A DNA stretch of 64,000 nucleotides from Boletus sp. NGJ. Taxonomy: Eukaryota; Basidiomycota; Agaricomycetes; Boletales; Boletaceae. Made by a program: the position numbers and the translations under genes. The notes below the pieces were generated by a model. That model was not told where the DNA came from. It did not search any database and saw only the letters and a list, made by a program, of their open reading frames with translations. The stretch covers positions 116,135 to 180,134 of the forward strand of contig JAGTXK010000257.1 in the NCBI GenBank assembly GCA_019096195.1. Direction: 5' to 3'. This document shows positions 55,151 to 64,000 of the stretch, piece by piece. Within the stretch, counting starts at the first letter, position 1. Every line of letters starts with the position of its first letter.

Positions 55151-55790
55151 CATTTTAAGGGATCTAATCTAATTGGGTAAGGGCTACCATAGGGTACAGG
55201 TAACATCAACATAGCAAACCACGCACATGCGCCAATGGCGCATGTGCGCGTCCACAACAACATCGCAATAAAACATGAACAATCGAGTGTTGATAACGAC
55301 GACTGCGGCATAAACGATGAACAGATGAAAACGAGGAATATGTTGAGTGTAGTTATACAGCGCGCACATGCGCGCATGGCGCATGTGCGTGTGAAATAAG
55401 CAACAACAACAAGACACATGTTTCACATTTATACGACAAACACGCCGATGCGCCATGAGAGCATCTGCTCAGTTGATAGGTGTGTCGTACTGAGGTCTTG
55501 TCTGTTGCTTGTTTCACCTGCGCACATGTGCGCATGTGCGCATGGGAAACAAGCAGCAACTAGTCCTCTAGTACGACACACCTATCAACTGAGCAGATGC
55601 TCTCATGGCGCATCGGCGTGTTTGTCGTATAAATGTGAAACATGTGTCTTGTTGTTGTTGCTTATTTCACACGCACATGCGCCATGCGCGCATGTGCGCG
55701 CTGTATAACTACACTCAACATATTCCTCGTTTTCATCTGTTCATCGTTTATGCCGCAGTCGTCGTTATCAACACTCGACAATGGCGTCGT
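55151..55790. repeat. Inverted-repeat element, copy 1
   Basis: The element begins with TTTTAAGGGATCTAATC. After about 130 bp it enters a 209-bp arm (55283-55491) whose reverse complement recurs without a difference at 55570-55778, leaving a 78-bp centre that is itself palindromic. Each arm contains nested GCGCACATGCGC-type palindromes. The whole could extrude as a hairpin of about 500 nt. It interrupts the KDZ relic. I see no open frame that suggests a protein; both arms naturally give the same ORF on opposite strands. Confidence 0.85.
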
Positions 55791-57568: not shown

Positions 57569-58030
57569 ATTTTAAGGGATCTAATCTAATTGGGTAAGGG
57601 CTACCATAGGGTACAGGTAACATCAACATAGCAAACCACGCACATGCGCCAATGGCGCATGTGCGCGTCCACAACAACATCGCAATAAAACATGAACAAT
57701 CGAGTGTTGATAACGACGACTGCGGCATAAACGATGAACAGATGAAAACGAGGGATATGTTGAGTGTAGTTATACAGCGCGCACATGCGCGCACGGCGCA
57801 TGTGCGTGTGAAATAAGCAACAACAACAAGACACATGTTTCACATTTATACGACAAACACGCCGATGCGCCATGAGAGCATCTGCTCAGTTGGTAGGTGT
57901 GTCGTACTATAGACAGCGCGCACATGCGCCATGTGCGCATGTGCGCGGGAAACAAACAACAAACAAGACCTCAGTACGACACACCTATCAACTGAGCAGA
58001 TGCTCTCATGGCGCATCGGCGTGTTTGTCG
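57569..58030. repeat. Inverted-repeat element, copy 2, truncated at telomeric repeats
   Basis: It is the same element as at 55151, beginning with the same TTTTAAGGGATC. The left arm is 57703-57911 with few differences, followed by a shorter centre (57912-57973). The right arm starts at 57974 but ends after 57 bp, at GTTTGTCG. The next base starts TTAGGGTTAGGTTAGGG. In copy 1 the arm continues past this point. The cut is therefore inside the element and is capped by telomeric sequence. Confidence 0.85.
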
Positions 58031-58047
58031 TTAGGGTTAGGTTAGGG
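58031..58047 (+). repeat. Telomeric repeat tract 1
   Basis: TTAGGG TTAGG TTAGGG, G-rich strand reading rightwards, directly joined to the broken inverted-repeat element. The chromosome end that was capped here lay to the right. Confidence 0.85.
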
Positions 58048-58455
58048 AGCCGAGCCGAGCCGCGAAGCGGCGAGGCGAGGCGTTACCGGCGGTAAGGCGA
58101 TAACGCTGTTGCCTCGGCAAGGGATTACCTTATGGGTCGCACTAGAGATATTGTCTACCGGTCGAGTACCAATTCGCCGGCGGTGTCTAGCCTTAGCTAG
58201 CACCCTAGTGTTTATCTACACTAAAGGCCCGTCATGGGTTTCGACCTTTTGGTCTCATCAGTAGGGGCGCACACCCCTAAACCCACACCACCTTAGGACA
58301 TACTAACCGGCTTATGTACACCTCACCATGATTTTGTATTGTCCTGGGCAGACTGGCTCATGAAATTTCCTTTTCGGGACTTATGACCGCCATACTAAGG
58401 AATTTCTCCCACGCAGTCGCTTTCAGACCCCGCAATCACGTGTCATTGGTGTGCC
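58048..58455 (-). mobile_element. Telomere-attached unit, family A (carries a type III hammerhead)
   Basis: A 408-bp unit is bounded on the left by telomeric tract 1 and on the right by TTTAGG-type repeats at 58456-58473. Its left 92 bp (58048-58139), GC-rich with an AGCCG/GCGAAGCGGCG fold, recur with minor changes at 59417-59508. If the sense strand is minus, as the ribozyme indicates, the shared 92 bp are the 3' end and the second copy is 5'-truncated. There is no open frame of note, so it would be non-autonomous. Confidence 0.65.
58231..58288 (-). ncRNA. Hammerhead ribozyme, type III
   Basis: On the minus strand all core elements are present. Stem III is UGUGGGU with ACCCAUG; the cleavage triplet is GUU. 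Stem I is UAGGGG/CCCCUA closed by a UGUGCG loop. The core CUGAUGA follows, then stem II GACC/GGUC with an AAAA loop, then GAA. Every catalytic-core nucleotide fits the consensus. Stem III is the open stem, hence type III. Self-cleavage would occur after the base complementary to position 58280. Confidence 0.85.
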
Positions 58456-58473
58456 GGTTTAGGTTTAGGGGGG
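58456..58473 (+). repeat. Degenerate telomeric tract 2
   Basis: GGTTTAGGTTTAGG followed by a G run; variant telomere-like repeats at the junction of two units. Confidence 0.6.
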
Positions 58474-58910
58474 AGCGAGCACTCGAGCGAAGCGAGAGTG
58501 CGAGCGGGGATAGTGTGGGATGGTGCCAGATAGGTAATAGGCTGAGGGCGACCAGCTCTCAACCACCTATTTCGTCCGGGGACTCATCAGACCTCTGGCG
58601 GAATAGTGAAAAGAATTTCTTGATACTCACCTGTATTTATAGGGAAGAGTACGCGCACGGACCATTAGTGATAACGTGGGAGAGCGGAGATAGACGCAGC
58701 GGAAATTAAAGCCGGATCTTGCCGGTTGCACTCGGATCTTTCCGGTTGCGCTTCTGCGTGAGAATTCTCTCACGGCTGCGGTAATTAAATTGCCGAGCCG
58801 GGTGTCGCAGTAGACCGAGTCGGGCCGCTCGGGTCATCGGTCCGATGCCTTTCGGTTATCTGGGCGCAACCCCTAAATCTCACCCCTTGGGCCACCGTTA
58901 GTCCTAGACC
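58474..58910 (-). mobile_element. Telomere-attached unit, family B, copy 1
   Basis: A unit of about 440 bp lies between telomeric tracts. Read on the minus strand, 5' to 3', it has a conserved front (CACCCC..CCACCGTTAG on plus), a long conserved body with GGATCTTGCCGG repeats, a TATAAATA box (58634-58641), the hammerhead at 58525-58599 and a terminal hairpin (GCACTC/GAGTGC) next to the telomeric repeats. No protein is encoded. Confidence 0.7.
58525..58599 (-). ncRNA. Hammerhead ribozyme, type I, copy 1
   Basis: Minus strand. Stem I is GCCAGA-GGU pairing with ACC-UA-UCUGGC (a two-base bulge), followed by CUGAUGA. Stem II is GUCC/GGAC in a tight hairpin, then GAA. Stem III AUAGG/CCUAU is extended by UGAG/CUCA. 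The cleavage triplet is AUU. Stem I is open, hence type I. The three other copies (58985, 59570, 59841) keep the core unchanged while the distal stem III varies. Confidence 0.88.
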
Positions 58911-58930
58911 GGTTAGGGTTAGGTTAGGGG
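58911..58930 (+). repeat. Telomeric repeat tract 3
   Basis: GGTTAGGGTTAGGTTAGGGG at the junction of family B copies 1 and 2, same orientation as tract 1. Confidence 0.8.
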
Positions 58931-59408
58931 GGGCCGAGCACAGCGAGCGAAGCGAGCTGTGCGAGGGGGATAGGAGTGGGATGGTGCCAGATAGGTAATA
59001 GGCGATGGGGCGACCGCTTCCATTGCCACCTATTTCGTCCGGGGACTCATCAGACCTCTGGCGAATAGAGAAAAGTATTTCATAACTCTTACCTGTATTT
59101 ATACAAGAAAGAGTCGCGCACGGACCATTAATATAACGTGGGAGAGCGGAGATAGACGCAGCGGAAATTAAAGCCGGATCTTGCCGGTAACACTCGGATC
59201 TTTCCGGTTGCGCTTCTGCGTGAGAATTCTCTCACGGCTGACGGTAATTAAATTGCCGAGCCGGGTGTCGCAGTAACCGAGTCGGGCCGTTCGGGTCTTC
59301 GGTCCGATGCTTCTTTCGGCTATCTCCGGGATCAGTCTAGACCACTTACGTAATATTATCTCACCCCTTGCCGGGGGTGTGCCACCGTTAGGTTCTCTAA
59401 GTTTAACC
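58931..59408 (-). mobile_element. Telomere-attached unit, family B, copy 2
   Basis: About 478 bp, full length, with the same order of parts as copy 1. The terminal hairpin is GCACAGC/GCTGTGC, the TATA-like box lies at 59096-59103 and the ribozyme at 58985-59062. The right (5') boundary CTAAGTTTAACC is followed by GGTTAGGG and then by the truncated family A copy. Confidence 0.7.
58985..59062 (-). ncRNA. Hammerhead ribozyme, type I, copy 2
   Basis: Core and stems I and II are identical to copy 1. The distal part of stem III is AUGG/CCAU instead of UGAG/CUCA, so pairing is kept although three of four pairs differ. The AUU cleavage triplet is kept. Confidence 0.88.
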
Positions 59409-59508
59409 GGTTAGGGAGCCGAGCCGAGCCGCGAAGCGGCGAGGCGAGGCGTTACCGGCGGTAATTCGATAACGCTGTTGCCTCGGCAAGGGATTACCTT
59501 ATGGGTCG
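59409..59508 (-). mobile_element. Single telomeric repeat plus 5'-truncated family A copy
   Basis: GGTTAGGG (59409-59416) is followed by 92 bp matching 58048-58139. The rest of family A, including its ribozyme, is missing, and family B copy 3 follows directly. In the minus-strand sense this is a copy truncated at its 5' end. Confidence 0.65.
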
Positions 59509-59728
59509 GGAGCGGGCCGAGCTGCGAGCGGAGCGAGCAGTGCGAGCGGGGATATGTGTGGGATGGGGGGCCAGATAGGTAATAGGCGTGGGGCGACCGC
59601 TTCCAACCCACCTATTTCGTCCGGGGACTCATCAGACCTCTGGCGAACTAGTGAAAAGAATTTCTTGTTCCTTACCTGTATTTATACGGGAAAGAATCGC
59701 GCACGGGCCATTAATAAGAACGTGAGAA
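59509..59728 (-). mobile_element. Telomere-attached unit, family B, copy 3 (5'-truncated)
   Basis: It has the terminal hairpin (CTGC/GCAG variant), the ribozyme at 59570-59644 and the TATA-like box at 59679-59686. It then stops near AACGTGAGAA, about 40 bp beyond the TATA box, where telomeric repeats begin. The conserved body of copies 1, 2 and 4 is absent. Confidence 0.7.
59570..59644 (-). ncRNA. Hammerhead ribozyme, type I, copy 3
   Basis: Core, stem I, stem II and AUU triplet as in copy 1. The distal stem III is weaker here (a few G-C pairs from GUGGG/CCCAC). The 3' flank is C-rich instead of ACC. Confidence 0.85.
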
Positions 59729-59790
59729 GGTTAGGGTTAGCCGTTTAGCCGTTAGCTGCGATAGGGTTAGGGGGGCGAGGGGTTAGGGGG
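59729..59790 (+). repeat. Telomeric and degenerate telomeric tract 4
   Basis: GGTTAGGGTTAG, then TTTAG/GTTAG variants and two further TTAGGGGGG runs, between family B copies 3 and 4. Confidence 0.75.
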
Positions 59791-60261
59791 GCGAGCACTC
59801 GAGCGAAGCGAGAGTGCGAGCGGGGTAGTGTGGGATGGTAGCCAGATAGGTAATAGGCTGAGGGCGACCAGCACTCAACCACCTATTTCGTCCGGGGACT
59901 CATCAGACCTCTGGCGGAATAGTGAAAAGAATTTCTTGATTACGTACCCTGTATTTATAGGGAACGAATCGCGCACGGACCATCAGTGAAACGTGGGAAT
60001 AGCGGAGATTACGCAGCGGAAATTAAACCGGATCTTGCCGGTTGTCACTCGGATCTTTCCGGTTGCGCTTCTGCGTGAGAATTCTCTCACGGCTCGCGGT
60101 AATTAAATAGCCGAGCCGGGTGGCGCAGATAGCCGAGTCGGGCCGTTAGGTCTCTCGGTCCGATGCTTCTTCGGCAATCTCCGGGATCGGTCTAGACCAC
60201 TTACGTAATTTATTCTCACCCCTTGCCGGGGGTGTGCCACCGTTAGGTTCCTAAGTTAACC
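59791..60261 (-). mobile_element. Telomere-attached unit, family B, copy 4
   Basis: About 470 bp, full length. The hairpin GCACTC/GAGTGC, the ribozyme at 59841-59915, the TATA-like box at 59952-59959, the conserved body and the 5' boundary CTAAGTTAACC are all present. It is followed by the longest TTAGGG tract of the window. Confidence 0.7.
59841..59915 (-). ncRNA. Hammerhead ribozyme, type I, copy 4
   Basis: Same core, stems and AUU triplet as copy 1, including the UGAG/CUCA distal stem III; one base of the distal loop differs. Confidence 0.88.
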
Positions 60262-60319
60262 GGTTAGGGTTAGGGTTAGGGTTAGCACGTTAGGGTTAGC
60301 GGTTAATAAGTTAGGTTAA
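60262..60319 (+). repeat. Telomeric repeat tract 5
   Basis: Three perfect TTAGGG repeats, a further one after GCAC, then degenerate GGTTAA/GTTAGG units. It lies at the 3' side of the Penelope-like element. Confidence 0.85.
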
Positions 60320-61279
60320 CGCTAAAGACCCAATGAGTTACGCGTATGGGCTAGGCTATAGCACCGATCCTCACGTTAGGGTAAGGTTATTCAGGCGTTC
60401 TGGCATGTATTGAGCCAGTCTTCAGCCCGTATCTAGAACATGTCGGGCTAAGATCACGCACTGCCTGCGTTCGCACTTTCGATTCGAGGGAGTGCTTCCC
60501 ACCTTACCATACTGGTGGTACGATTAACGTCACTAAAACGAATAAAACACTGCAAAGCGTTTCGAGTATACTCAGGTCTAAAGCTATCGTAAGCTTGCAC
60601 ATACGTTACACGCCGTCTGTGGCCGGACTCTTCGTCCGTCATCCCCCCGAGGGTGGACGTTGGATTCCTACTGAGTATTGCACTGTTCGGACCCCCCGGT
60701 TGCCCGGGATTCCAGCCAGGCGCTGTATGGAGAGGCTTCGTTGAGGCTCTCAGACAACCCTTTCATTCTCTACTTCGCCGACCATGCCGGACTAGAGTGT
60801 CTCTCCGGTTTTCCTATTCACCAAGAGTACGCGATCGCGTCGGTGATAGTGAGGCTCAACCTCGGGCGGTAGTTTCTTACCGCTGTACGGAGCCGGTTCT
60901 CCCGCACAAACTTAGCCCGCCGCCGGAGCGGACGGGTACCCTTCCCCATTACAGGTCGGGCTCGCCGAGGTGGCCGAGGCGCCCCAGCTGTGAGTTGAGG
61001 CTCCTGCGGTAGAGGGACTCCATCGGTATCATCGCCCCTTCTCGGGTGATACGACCGTGCACTCATGGCTTTGAGACTCGTAAGAGTGTCTCTGCCATCT
61101 AGGTCAGCAGTGTCCCCCAGCAAACACCGGGGAAGCAGATCTCCGCTGTACATTGATGACGTCGTCACTTTCTAGATCAATCACTTTTCCTGATTGCAGA
61201 GCGACGCCACTTTGCTGGTAGAGCGGGGTCAGGCGGGCCGGCATGACCTGGTTGGTCATCTGGATGGATGGAATCCAGT

Positions 61280-63843
61280 TCACCGGTACCCTTTATCTGC
61301 TAGACGTTCCAACACGATCTTTTTCCAAAGATTTGTGAGGTCGAATAGTTGCGTAGTGCGTTTCCGCGATACGATTATTCGACGGTCTAGGATATCCGTA
61401 CGCCGGAGGTCAGGGACCTCAGTCGGTGTACCATCAGCACGCACAGACTCTATACAGAGCCGGGGCTTCCGGTCCACGTCATCCGTGTAGCCAACTGGCT
61501 CCGGGGGGAATTCTATGTTGAATTCCTTACGCTCGGCTTTATACAGCCAAGATCGCATATATCCTAGGATCGTGTCTCCTAGTTTAGTGACGGAGAATAG
61601 CTCCCATGCCGTGTTGTACTCGGTTTTGAGCACCAGGGCCGCGCTTGCCGCTGCGACATCGGATTTGGTCGTTAAGCGATTGTTCCATCGCTCCTGGAGT
61701 TTATTGCGTCTCCAAGTACAACAGCAGCGCCTCGTCATATCCACGCATCACATAGATGGAAACCAACCAATCTAGCGCATCGAGGTAGTTTTCGAACGTA
61801 CTACTCAGCGTGGCGAGACGACTCATTTCACCGTAGAATGTACCTCGTTTGACATCTATCGGGTGACCTGAGACATAGGGGATTCTCTGGTGGAGCGACT
61901 TGGCCTTCTGGTATGGTCTATGCTGCAATTTCCCTCTATCATCCTTATAGAGCAGCATATCCAGGAAAGGCTGGGCATTGCCGACGTCCCACGTTATGAC
62001 GCAATGATCGATTTTTACATTCTCGGTGCATAATGGCTAGCGCTTCCTGAGGGCTGCTTGCGTACACTATGCCGAGACAATCGTCGATATACCTACCGTA
62101 GTAGGCTATCCGTGGGTGATTGAGAATTCCATCACGTTTTTCGCAGAACCACCCATACAAATTAGCGAGGTCCGGCGAGTCTGCGACGCCCATTGCTAGG
62201 CCGTTTAGTTGTTGGAATATCTCCCCATCGAATTGCGTCAGCAGCTCCGTGTTACCAACCCGTAAACAGTCGTTAAAGAACATAACAAAGTTATGCACCG
62301 ACAACCCGTTCCAATGCTCATTCTCGTCCCCTTCATTCTGGTAGACCCATTCGACAAACATGCCGAAGACTCTATCCAAGCACAATTCCAAAGGAATGTT
62401 GGGGTAATAAGCAACTACATCGCCGGTGACGATGTAGAATTTGGCACCCGGGATCAGGTGGAGCTGGCTCAATTTTATCGCCAAATCTTTGCTGCCATGG
62501 ATGACAGTTAGCGCCTCGTCAACTAGAGGTTTGAGCATTTTACTACAGAATTTGGCGGCCGGATTCTGGATCGCGCTATGACAGGGTAGGATGGGCCTGA
62601 ATTTGACTGGTTGTTTATGGATCTTTGGGATTCCATAAAAGCGCGGTATATGGTGATCTGCCGTAGGGGCGGTAACAAGATGCTTTAAGTATTCATCTAT
62701 GGAACCATATTTCCAGCAATATATGTCCGACCGCTGAGAGAGTAAGATCATCTCGTTACATTTTTTATCGAGGATCTGTTTCGCAGCAGCGTTGTCGAGG
62801 CGTTTGTATTCGCGCTCGTTTGACAAACATGCGAGGGTATTTTCTATAATCCAGGTCCGCTCTGACACCGCTAAGCCGAGGTTCTTGTCGGTAGGAGTGA
62901 TCACATAGTCGTGATCCAACATGAACTTGCGTAACTCGTTTACCTTGGGACCGAGCGGTTTGAATGTGCCGTCGACAAGGCCATCAAGCGGGGCATTGGC
63001 AGTGACGTTGTGGACGTATGCACGCCCTCGCTTGAGAGCGAGTTCGCAATAAAACGGTAATACGGGTGGGTCCGCCTTACTGGGCGGAGACACATCGTAA
63101 TCGGGATCATAGGTAGTATTAGTTTCTCCCTCTAATATAAATTTGACCTTCCATCTAAAGCGTCTTACGAAGTCTAGATACGCGTCAGTGATCAATTGCG
63201 TCTGACGCGGTTGGTGAAACATATGTTTCATACCGATACCAAGGTCGAGTTCTAACTCCCGCGGTATAGAAACTCCTGGGCCTGTATGTATACGTGATTT
63301 GAATCGGCCAGCCTCTACAAACTTAAGAGGGATATGTCGAATCACGCAACTTATGGCCTGCAAAGGTGAGGCGAAGTCTATAATCTCATCCGGTAATGTC
63401 CAGTACTTGGGGTACTCATAGTCACTCATTAAAGAGTCCAAACACGAATCACAGATCGCATTGAGTGTAGGAATGTCCATAAAGTCATCTACACTATTTT
63501 CTACGGAGTCCTTTCCTAAGCTCCTTCTTTTGCTCCCGGATGAGCGCTCTACCCTCTGCGAGCAGCCTTTCCCTTGGCCCCATGTGCTTGGCCTTTCGGT
63601 GGGGGGCCGGAGGGGGTGCGGGCCTGCGCCTGAGATCGAGGCGCTCCTCCGCGGTTGCTCTTCCCTCCTCTTCCCGTTGCTTGAGGACGACGCGGGATAC
63701 GACCTCCGGTTGAAATACGCGCTGACTTGTGCGCGCTCTTGCGGGGGGGATGCTGTTGATGACCCTGGGGACCAGGGCCGGAGGGACGAAGTGGCTTCAA
63801 CAGCAGTTAGTCGTCTGTTTACCGGTACAGAAACGACAGACAC
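61280..63843 (-). pseudogene. Penelope-like reverse transcriptase with two frameshifts
   Basis: The 632-codon frame (63843-61945) has, in order, TPTDKNLGL (about residue 316), FYGIPKIHK..FRPI, motif A TGDVVAYYPNIP (about 474), motif B GLAMGVADSPDLANLY (about 546) and motif C YYGRYIDDCLGI (about 586). The family-typical continuation, VITWDVGNAQPFLDML..IPYVSGHPIDVKRG, is in a second frame from about 62027. A third frame from about 61720 gives KLQERWNNRL and runs to a stop at 61280. Both shifts look like single-base changes, so this copy is probably dead, or the assembly has indels. The upstream frame begins with GTG. A GTAAGT donor near its start suggests the true N-terminus is spliced from the ORF to the right; retained introns are known in this family. 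Confidence 0.82.
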
Positions 63844-64000
63844 TTACACCACCGACTTTCGGCGTAAGCCGCTTGACCGCCGCGTTGACTGCACGGTCCA
63901 CTGCCGATTGAATGGACGGTCCGGCTGGACCGGTCGCATCCTGCATATCAACGTCAGCGGCCTCCTGAGTACGCTTCTTCGCGGCTCGTTTCACTTCCGC
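63797..64000 (-). CDS. Basic N-terminal ORF of the Penelope-like element, partial
   Basis: The minus-strand frame is open from the right edge to a stop at 63797: Lys/Arg-rich (RAAKKRTQ), then AVDRAVNAAVKRL and a Cys cluster CRFCTGKQTTNCC. It overlaps the start of the RT frame. A strong splice donor (GTAAGT) lies inside it at about 63843. Probably it is the N-terminal part of the RT protein, joined by splicing. Confidence 0.4.
   Translation of the reverse strand, partial: AEVKRAAKKRTQEAADVDMQDATGPAGPSIQSAVDRAVNAAVKRLTPKVGGVSVCRFCTGKQTTNCC

Follow-up and report, generated by a model that had tools for sequence, protein, structure and literature searches.

The closest described counterparts of the system reported here are the terminons, or Athena elements, of bdelloid rotifers, which combine a telomerase-related reverse transcriptase (RT) with a hammerhead ribozyme near the RNA 3' end and telomere-complementary repeats after it (PMC6431247; for the hammerhead and the telomere-complementary end also PMC12477314), and which carry telomeric repeats at their truncated 5' sides and lie in head-to-tail arrays (PMC6431247). 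For Penelope-like elements (PLEs) that lack an endonuclease, priming from exposed ends has been proposed, and telomeric repeats occur at the truncated 5' end in rotifers and fungi (PMC3846280); in Agaricus bisporus, PLEs lie at two chromosome ends that lack telomeres (PMC7473861). A further group, the retrozymes, comprises plant forms with a type III hammerhead and long terminal repeats (LTRs) and animal forms with a type I hammerhead and a tandem non-LTR organisation, the latter proposed to be mobilised by PLEs (PMC7229834, PMC7761336). Finally, MoTeR1 and MoTeR2 of the rice-blast fungus Magnaporthe oryzae are autonomous and non-autonomous units that form heterogeneous head-to-tail telomere arrays with (TTAGGG)n between them; MoTeR1 has a putative REL-endonuclease and both its terminal sequences in common with MoTeR2, and the available text mentions no ribozyme (PMC7367193). 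Here we describe an array of two kinds of ribozyme-bearing unit, A and B, next to a PLE in Boletus sp. NGJ. The window, i.e. the whole stretch of 64,000 nucleotides analysed, is the end of contig C1 (JAGTXK010000257.1, positions 116135-180134 of 180134), in a genome assembly of 32.8 Mb in 141 contigs. The host is likely a member of the Boletaceae: over 57% of the query, one of its proteins is 99% identical to a Butyriboletus roseoflavus protein, while five proteins whose matches span almost the full query are 78-85% identical.

The array is real. It occupies window positions 58042-60265 and holds six units in the order A, B, B, A, B, B (two A, four B), with their RNA sense on the minus strand, and it adjoins a cut-off PLE inside which the contig stops at window base 64000. 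On the minus strand, the CUGAUGA...GAAA core of a hammerhead is complete in five of the six units, the sixth being a 98-bp stub, and in alignment the units are 86-100% identical to their own families. TTAGGG-type tracts lie on the plus strand at 58031-58047 (TTAGGGTTAGGTTAGGG, onto which the first unit, A1, is joined), 58459-58470, 58913-58929 (between the second and third units, B1 and B2) and 60264-60281. In this respect the original prediction, made from the letters of the window, has been borne out: it proposed six units mostly separated by TTAGGG, with hammerheads on the minus strand, with no protein product (the longest frame of A on either strand is 79 amino acids) and with the same sense strand as the neighbouring PLE RT. 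Its further view, that no fungal telomere had yet been described with non-autonomous units in series, is not supported: the MoTeR2 arrays are of this kind.

B and its Penelope-like element

B is the terminal repeat of the PLE and not an independent element. In the stretches fetched from the genome, a full-length B stands at the RNA 3' side of all 12 PLE copies in which that side is visible (some are arms of palindromes, hence not all are independent), and at each of the three visible PLE 5' ends (contig C107 has two, C46 one) AAGTATGG leads directly into the start of a B. In the window this repeat is unit B4 (minus strand, 59782-60265), which is fused to the PLE at its RNA 3' end; the PLE body (minus strand, 60264-64000) is cut by the contig end and contains an RT frame at 61945-63843 that is broken downstream here. 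The joint between the two reads TTAGGGTTAGGGTTAGGGTTAGCA(C/T)GTTAGGG across PLE copies; in the window it is the telomere-like tract (TTAGGG)3TTAGCACGTTAGGG (minus strand, 60264-60295), which shows at most one base change in 12 of 12 copies. Since the length of this tract is kept between PLE copies that are about 80% alike, it is part of the PLE and not a later telomere addition. Each of the two C107 copies measures about 4.98 kb from the start of B to its PLE 5' end, with one long frame in between. B lies on both sides of the coding part, like the pseudo-LTRs of PLEs with their minimal type I hammerhead. Furthermore, when 30 B copies are placed in a tree (12 of them linked to a PLE and 18 others, including one at a PLE 5' side), the labels are intermixed, with three sets of identical sequences that span solo and PLE-linked copies and at least six forced label changes. 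The joints and the interleaved tree rule out B as the independent non-autonomous family that it was first taken for. Of the three full copies counted earlier, the last, B4, belongs to the PLE. Genome-wide, B gives 49 matches, some of them pieces of one unit.

The remaining B units of the window are B1 (minus strand, 58465-58916), a solo full-length copy with a variant distal part that ends at CCGG|TTAGGG; B2 (minus strand, 58923-59412), also solo and full-length; and B3 (minus strand, 59514-59727), which is truncated and lacks the first 8 bases. Directly before B4 the first bases of B are repeated (minus strand, 59764-59779, a 16-bp unit in 2.0 copies), possibly an abortive start. A single TTAGGG links B2 to the second A unit, A2 (minus strand, 59411-59508), while no TTAGGG is present at the A2/B3 junction (59508-59514). 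The A2/B3 block, together with a TTAGCCGTTTAGCC-type spacer (window 59411-59780), recurs at a second contig end (C30:58151-58536), a sign of exchange between chromosome ends.

The RT of the PLE is kin to telomerase RT, and the four rows with species names among the 120 relatives listed belong to Armillaria, Bondarzewia and Trametes. No GIY-YIG endonuclease was found in an intact frame, in its last 313 residues (E up to 10), by a motif scan or in 26 relatives, although Pfam missed the RT here too, so that a divergent domain could escape notice: the RT domain of the window frame has no Pfam match, and our own Pfam scans returned neither PF28514 nor PF26215, the precomputed domains that RT relatives carry in the protein search. 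Searches of solved structures by sequence listed no PLE, nor was one among the fold matches listed; searches of viral contigs with the RT and the two ribozyme patterns gave no relative. The best reading is a terminon-like fungal PLE without a detected endonuclease. In being fungal, in its chromosome-end location and in having no detected GIY-YIG, it resembles the endonuclease-deficient fungal PLEs (the Coprina group). Protist and fungal endonuclease-deficient PLEs are described as being without the canonical terminal-repeat organisation (PMC3846280), whereas the bolete PLE has such repeats, with hammerheads in them. It also differs from terminons, which reach up to 40 kb, in its size of about 5 kb (period about 4.98 kb), its one frame with no accessory frames, its fungal TTAGGG telomeres, its terminal repeats on both sides, its built-in (TTAGGG)3 and its type III non-coding partner.

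Element A, the hammerheads and the RNA 3' tails

That partner, A, is by its sequence a separate non-coding element. It shows no significant similarity to B or the PLE and, unlike the two MoTeR elements, shares no terminal sequence with its putative autonomous partner beyond telomeric words, only a similar hairpin. Full A copies are 931-933 bp long and number five: C107 holds a tandem run of four, and C20 the fifth. Each is directly followed by another A (5/5), the last follower on C107 soon becoming a mixed A/B stretch. A gives 42 matches in the genome, some of them pieces of one unit. With its non-coding sequence of 0.93 kb, its hammerhead and its head-to-tail multimeric genomic copies, A resembles retrozymes, and differs from them in combining a type III hammerhead with a fixed telomere-matching 3' edge, a telomeric placement and a fungal host. 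Window unit A1 (minus strand, 58042-58456, RNA 3' end at left) is a 5'-truncated copy that covers 415 bp of the 931-933 bp, which rules it out as the full copy it had been thought to be; A2, the 98-bp stub, is indeed truncated as proposed.

Rfam at its gathering cut-offs reports nothing in the window. At relaxed limits, the hammerhead of A1 (minus strand, 58233-58287, predicted cleavage between 58280 and 58279) matches type III (RF00008) with 43.0 bits and an E-value of 4.6e-7, against a cut-off of 48.5, and contains no non-standard pair. The four B units reach 17.6-21.2 bits (E 0.69-7). As such, the covariance models, proposed at the outset as a check on the ribozymes, do not reject A as type III, even if it stays below the cut-off; A is well supported and B weakly. 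A genome-wide, candidate-limited Rfam type III search found the A-level score of 43.0 bits at 10 places in the genome, and also gave below-cut-off matches in three of 14 control genomes. The hammerhead core pattern occurs 68 times in the genome, compared to three times for a reversed control, and 58 of the 68 matches fall within A or B units, although in two of those 58 the sequence is degenerate or mixed.

The B cores (minus strand, 58525-58599 in B1, 58986-59062 in B2, 59570-59644 in B3 and 59841-59915 in B4) are complete and can be arranged as type I, with a capped stem III, a stem I with a UA bulge and a short stem II. This arrangement, with cleavage after UU (predicted in B1 between 58536 and 58535), is our own reading. 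Two observations count in favour of a ribozyme function: the least variable 20-base block of B consists of CUGAUGA plus stem I (mean column identity 0.996, compared to 0.69-0.99 elsewhere, in 28 distinct rows), and the tip of stem III shows matching changes (AUGG/CCAU, UUGAG/CUCAG, GUUGGA/UCCAAC). PLE hammerheads have been described as minimal variants whose role is open, with cleavage as dimers in a study cited there (PMC7761336). We infer that both A and B would be active as ribozymes.

The predicted cut leaves a tail of about 74 nt in B and of about 247 nt in A. The B tail reads CC-UC-GCACAGC-UC-GC-UUC-GC-UC-GCUGUGC-UC-GG-CCCCCCUAA and that of A, in which the hairpin occupies 58049-58081 (minus strand), GCC-UC-GCC-UC-GCCGC-UUC-GCGGC-UC-GGC-UC-GGC-UCCCUAA. 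The RNAs of A and of the PLE are thus alike in having a terminal UUC-capped hairpin with UC/UC internal loops, followed by CCCUAA. In B, the order is hammerhead, about 74 nt with the hairpin, and then CCCUAA, so that the telomere-complementary end is not immediately adjacent to the hammerhead. Eight B tail variants, with pairs read by script, show stem changes that match on both arms, and the inner mismatch is kept in seven of the eight; the fold z-score of the B tail is -4.2. It is likely, judging from the sequences, that the similar tails of A and B act as a handle for the RT.

Chromosome ends and a proposed copying cycle

Edge statistics were compiled for 85 pieces (39 A, 46 B) at the fetched loci, read on 18 contigs; matches at C44:682 kb, C109, C112, C114:548 kb and C10:281-282 kb are left out of these counts. 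In 34/39 cases for A and 41/46 for B, a piece begins at most 9 bases from the RNA 3' edge, while the distal ends vary; near contig ends it is the telomere-facing side that is cut short. The right flank is telomere-like in 23/39 A and 33/46 B pieces. In the fetched stretches, 10 of the 19 clusters lie within 5 kb of a contig end; eight of these face wholly outward, one is palindromic (C50) and one faces the opposite way (C84). Because repeats also break contigs, position alone is a weak argument and orientation a better one. Exact (TTAGGG)3 matches number 42 in the genome, 40 of them in or beside arrays (12 of these in one C107 tract) and two elsewhere (C75:178585 and C84:3). The reversed control pattern (GGGATT)3 has 65 matches, which shows that another G-rich simple repeat exists and that the location of the TTAGGG matches, not their number, is what tells. 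The idea of ribozyme units added serially to telomeric ends is supported by the fixed 3' edge, the variable distal edge and the outward orientation. Had the units been mainly internal, this would have spoken against it; the near-end clusters and the TTAGGG matches speak for it, but nine of the 19 clusters sit further inside, at 5 to 402 kb.

We hold it to be fairly probable that the window shows a chromosome end, or former end, at which PLE and A RNAs were serially copied onto the telomere. In this scheme the telomeric units would be transcribed, and the multimeric RNA would be cut by the hammerheads and the pieces re-joined as circles, unless uncut multimers serve. The CCCUAA stretch would then pair with a free TTAGGG 3' end, and the telomerase-like PLE RT would extend the paired end by copying the RNA, going round the template in the case of a circle. 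Copying would stop early, or the end would later break, telomeric repeats would cap the stop, and the next RNA would land; A would be copied in trans by the PLE RT, as a retrozyme-like partner. Telomere-primed copying is likely for the starts, and the trans role of the PLE RT, already part of the original prediction, is plausible for A. Circles, priming by CCCUAA pairing and trans-copying of A are steps that we infer.

As for the template, a linear RNA cut by the ribozyme would template just the stretch from the priming edge to the cut. Among the edge-starting pieces, 39/41 B and 21/34 A run past the cut, which rules out the ribozyme-cut linear monomer as the main template and implies that templates were uncut or re-joined. 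Moreover, ends do not pile up at the cut: none of the 46 B ends lies within 3 bases of position 74 (the nearest is at 69), and none of the 39 A ends within 10 of position 247, although few would be expected in either case and this is weak evidence by itself. The A/A and PLE/B joins indicate that, on the template, the 5' end of the element was continuous with its own 3' tail, which is the case in circles and multimers; the A/A and PLE-5'/B joins need such a multimeric or circular template, or a later DNA amplification. The template may be either a circle or a multimer. Retrozyme work favours circles (PMC7229834). Additional reshaping of the arrays at the DNA level is likely.

Several points weigh against serial copying of ribozyme-bearing RNAs. 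An animal PLE in vitro is reported to initiate internally and not to need ribozyme cleavage (Frangieh et al., PMC11167929), which favours uncut multimers, and cleavage and circles are themselves predictions. RNAfold favours an alternative fold over the B hammerhead by 4.4-9.4 kcal/mol, in addition to the weak Rfam scores of B. Among the eight B tail variants, the inner UC/UC loop is closed by pairing in one, and pairs are lost in two; the A hairpin is just modestly better than shuffles (z -1.8), and its likeness to that of B is an apparent one. By a simple pattern, the left flank is telomere-like in just 16/34 A and 27/41 B edge-starting pieces. Distal truncation is equally expected from end erosion and telomere healing, and DNA amplification could explain the four tandem A copies on C107, which are 99-100% alike. 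The solo and linked labels in the B tree cluster more strongly than after shuffling, which gives 9.0 changes on average and an equally low number in 6 and 16 of 500 shuffles, and the silence of Pfam on an endonuclease is weak, the RT domain of the same protein having been missed as well. Lastly, on C8, C20 and C50 there are palindromes in which A meets A, or PLE meets PLE, head to head; these may be assembly artefacts, the alternative being chromosome-end fusions.

Some loci stand apart. A and B copies deep inside contigs are found at C114:402 kb, C122, C81:1701 kb and C81:270 kb. The C122 and C81 copies have diverged (77-90%). The pair on C122 agrees with the one at C81:1701 kb in its identities and its flanks, which is what relics or a duplicated block would show. 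At C107:495953-496111 the array is closed off by about 160 bp of telomeric repeats, yet the contig continues for 23 kb of other sequence, which points to either an end fusion or a misjoin. Fine-scale interleaving of A and B at C107:490353-490760 and C118:226460-226995 most likely reflects assembly consensus errors. Directly before the array, the window contains a truncated copy of a third, telomere-ward and palindromic repeat, D (minus strand, 57571-58034, TTTT at one edge, 84 genome matches), and there is further D sequence at 55154-55778; complete D is about 610 bp long, with several GCGCATGTGCGC-type palindromes and a fold-back second half. Several D copies directly abut truncated A or B ends without TTAGGG, and D probably lies outside the ribozyme system.

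Alternative explanations and wider meaning

How did solo B copies of full length arise? We lean slightly towards regarding them as PLE copies cut short, by a stop or a break, at the built-in (TTAGGG)3, which would act as a ready-made telomere seed. The end CCGG|TTAGGG of 11 of 13 hand-picked solo junctions is the same border as in all 12 PLE copies (one has CTGG), and solo and linked B have identical sequences in common. Equally compatible, however, are B monomers as retrozymes in their own right, derived from B-TTAGGG-B arrays as circles of about 490 nt, and at two C20 junctions (123910 and 137129) B occurs without TTAGGG.

It could further be argued that retrotransposition accounts for PLE attachment alone, and that the array arose mostly through erosion or breaks of the ends (with a preference for internal TTAGGG tracts), telomerase healing, break-induced replication and D-loop or rolling-circle DNA copying. 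MoTeR arrays are reported to be shaped by the truncation and subsequent healing of ends, by break-induced replication, by D-loop amplification and by tandem amplification that leaves the spacers identical (PMC7367193). The stop of full-length solo B at the PLE's telomere-like border in those 11 of 13 junctions, the recurrence of the A2/B3 block on C30 and the near-identity of the four C107 A copies would all fit such an origin. Conversely, C20 has nearly the same A/A join as C107, the two copies being 97% alike, and the PLE-5'/B join is found in divergent PLE copies, so that these joins seem to belong to the template. Some B and A starts are very short, about 14-32 bases, before another unit sets in, as would suit abortive copying. 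We therefore consider a mainly DNA-based origin unlikely, if far from negligible, and serial RNA copying the better account.

Distinctly less probable is a second PLE family, lost from or missing in this assembly, of which A would be a remnant or the terminal repeat instead of being a partner of the window PLE. A does have its own ribozyme type and no homology to the window PLE, and the assembly is in 141 contigs, with many arrays that stop at contig breaks. Against this, A reaches 931-933 bp at most, and what adjoins the distal end of that form is another A in 5/5 cases; the 19 RT matches listed are all of the B-type PLE except for one short, weak match on C108, although RTs that are too divergent would be missed. 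That the motifs arose by chance, or that the array is an assembly collapse, is scarcely credible: two sister arrays do contain interleaved A/B sequence resembling a mixed consensus, and palindromic joins are present in the genome, but 49 B and 42 A matches, pieces on 18 contigs, repeated junction types and 68 versus three hammerhead pattern matches stand against it.

The basic telomere scheme of PLEs is already known from rotifers. Within the open-licence literature, which was the scope of our search, the arrangement of A with a PLE was not found; new relative to that literature are fungal PLE terminal repeats with hammerheads, the built-in telomere tract and, above all, the type III partner A. 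Both the role of hammerheads in PLEs and the mobilisation of retrozymes by PLEs are described as open (PMC7761336, PMC7229834). A PLE and a sequence-unrelated ribozyme element that have a landing site in common and a similar tail, in one compact genome, make this proposed link testable, and the system provides a fungal parallel to the rotifer terminons. Going one step further, we tentatively suggest that A may be a telomere-directed, protein-less, circular-RNA retrozyme with a type III hammerhead that mimics the 3' hairpin and CCCUAA of the PLE and in this way borrows its endonuclease-lacking RT, and that both RNAs may be copied straight onto chromosome ends by rolling-circle reverse transcription, with the PLE carrying a built-in telomere seed. 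If true, this would be a fungal chromosome-end system in which telomeres lengthen through self-cleaving circular RNAs.

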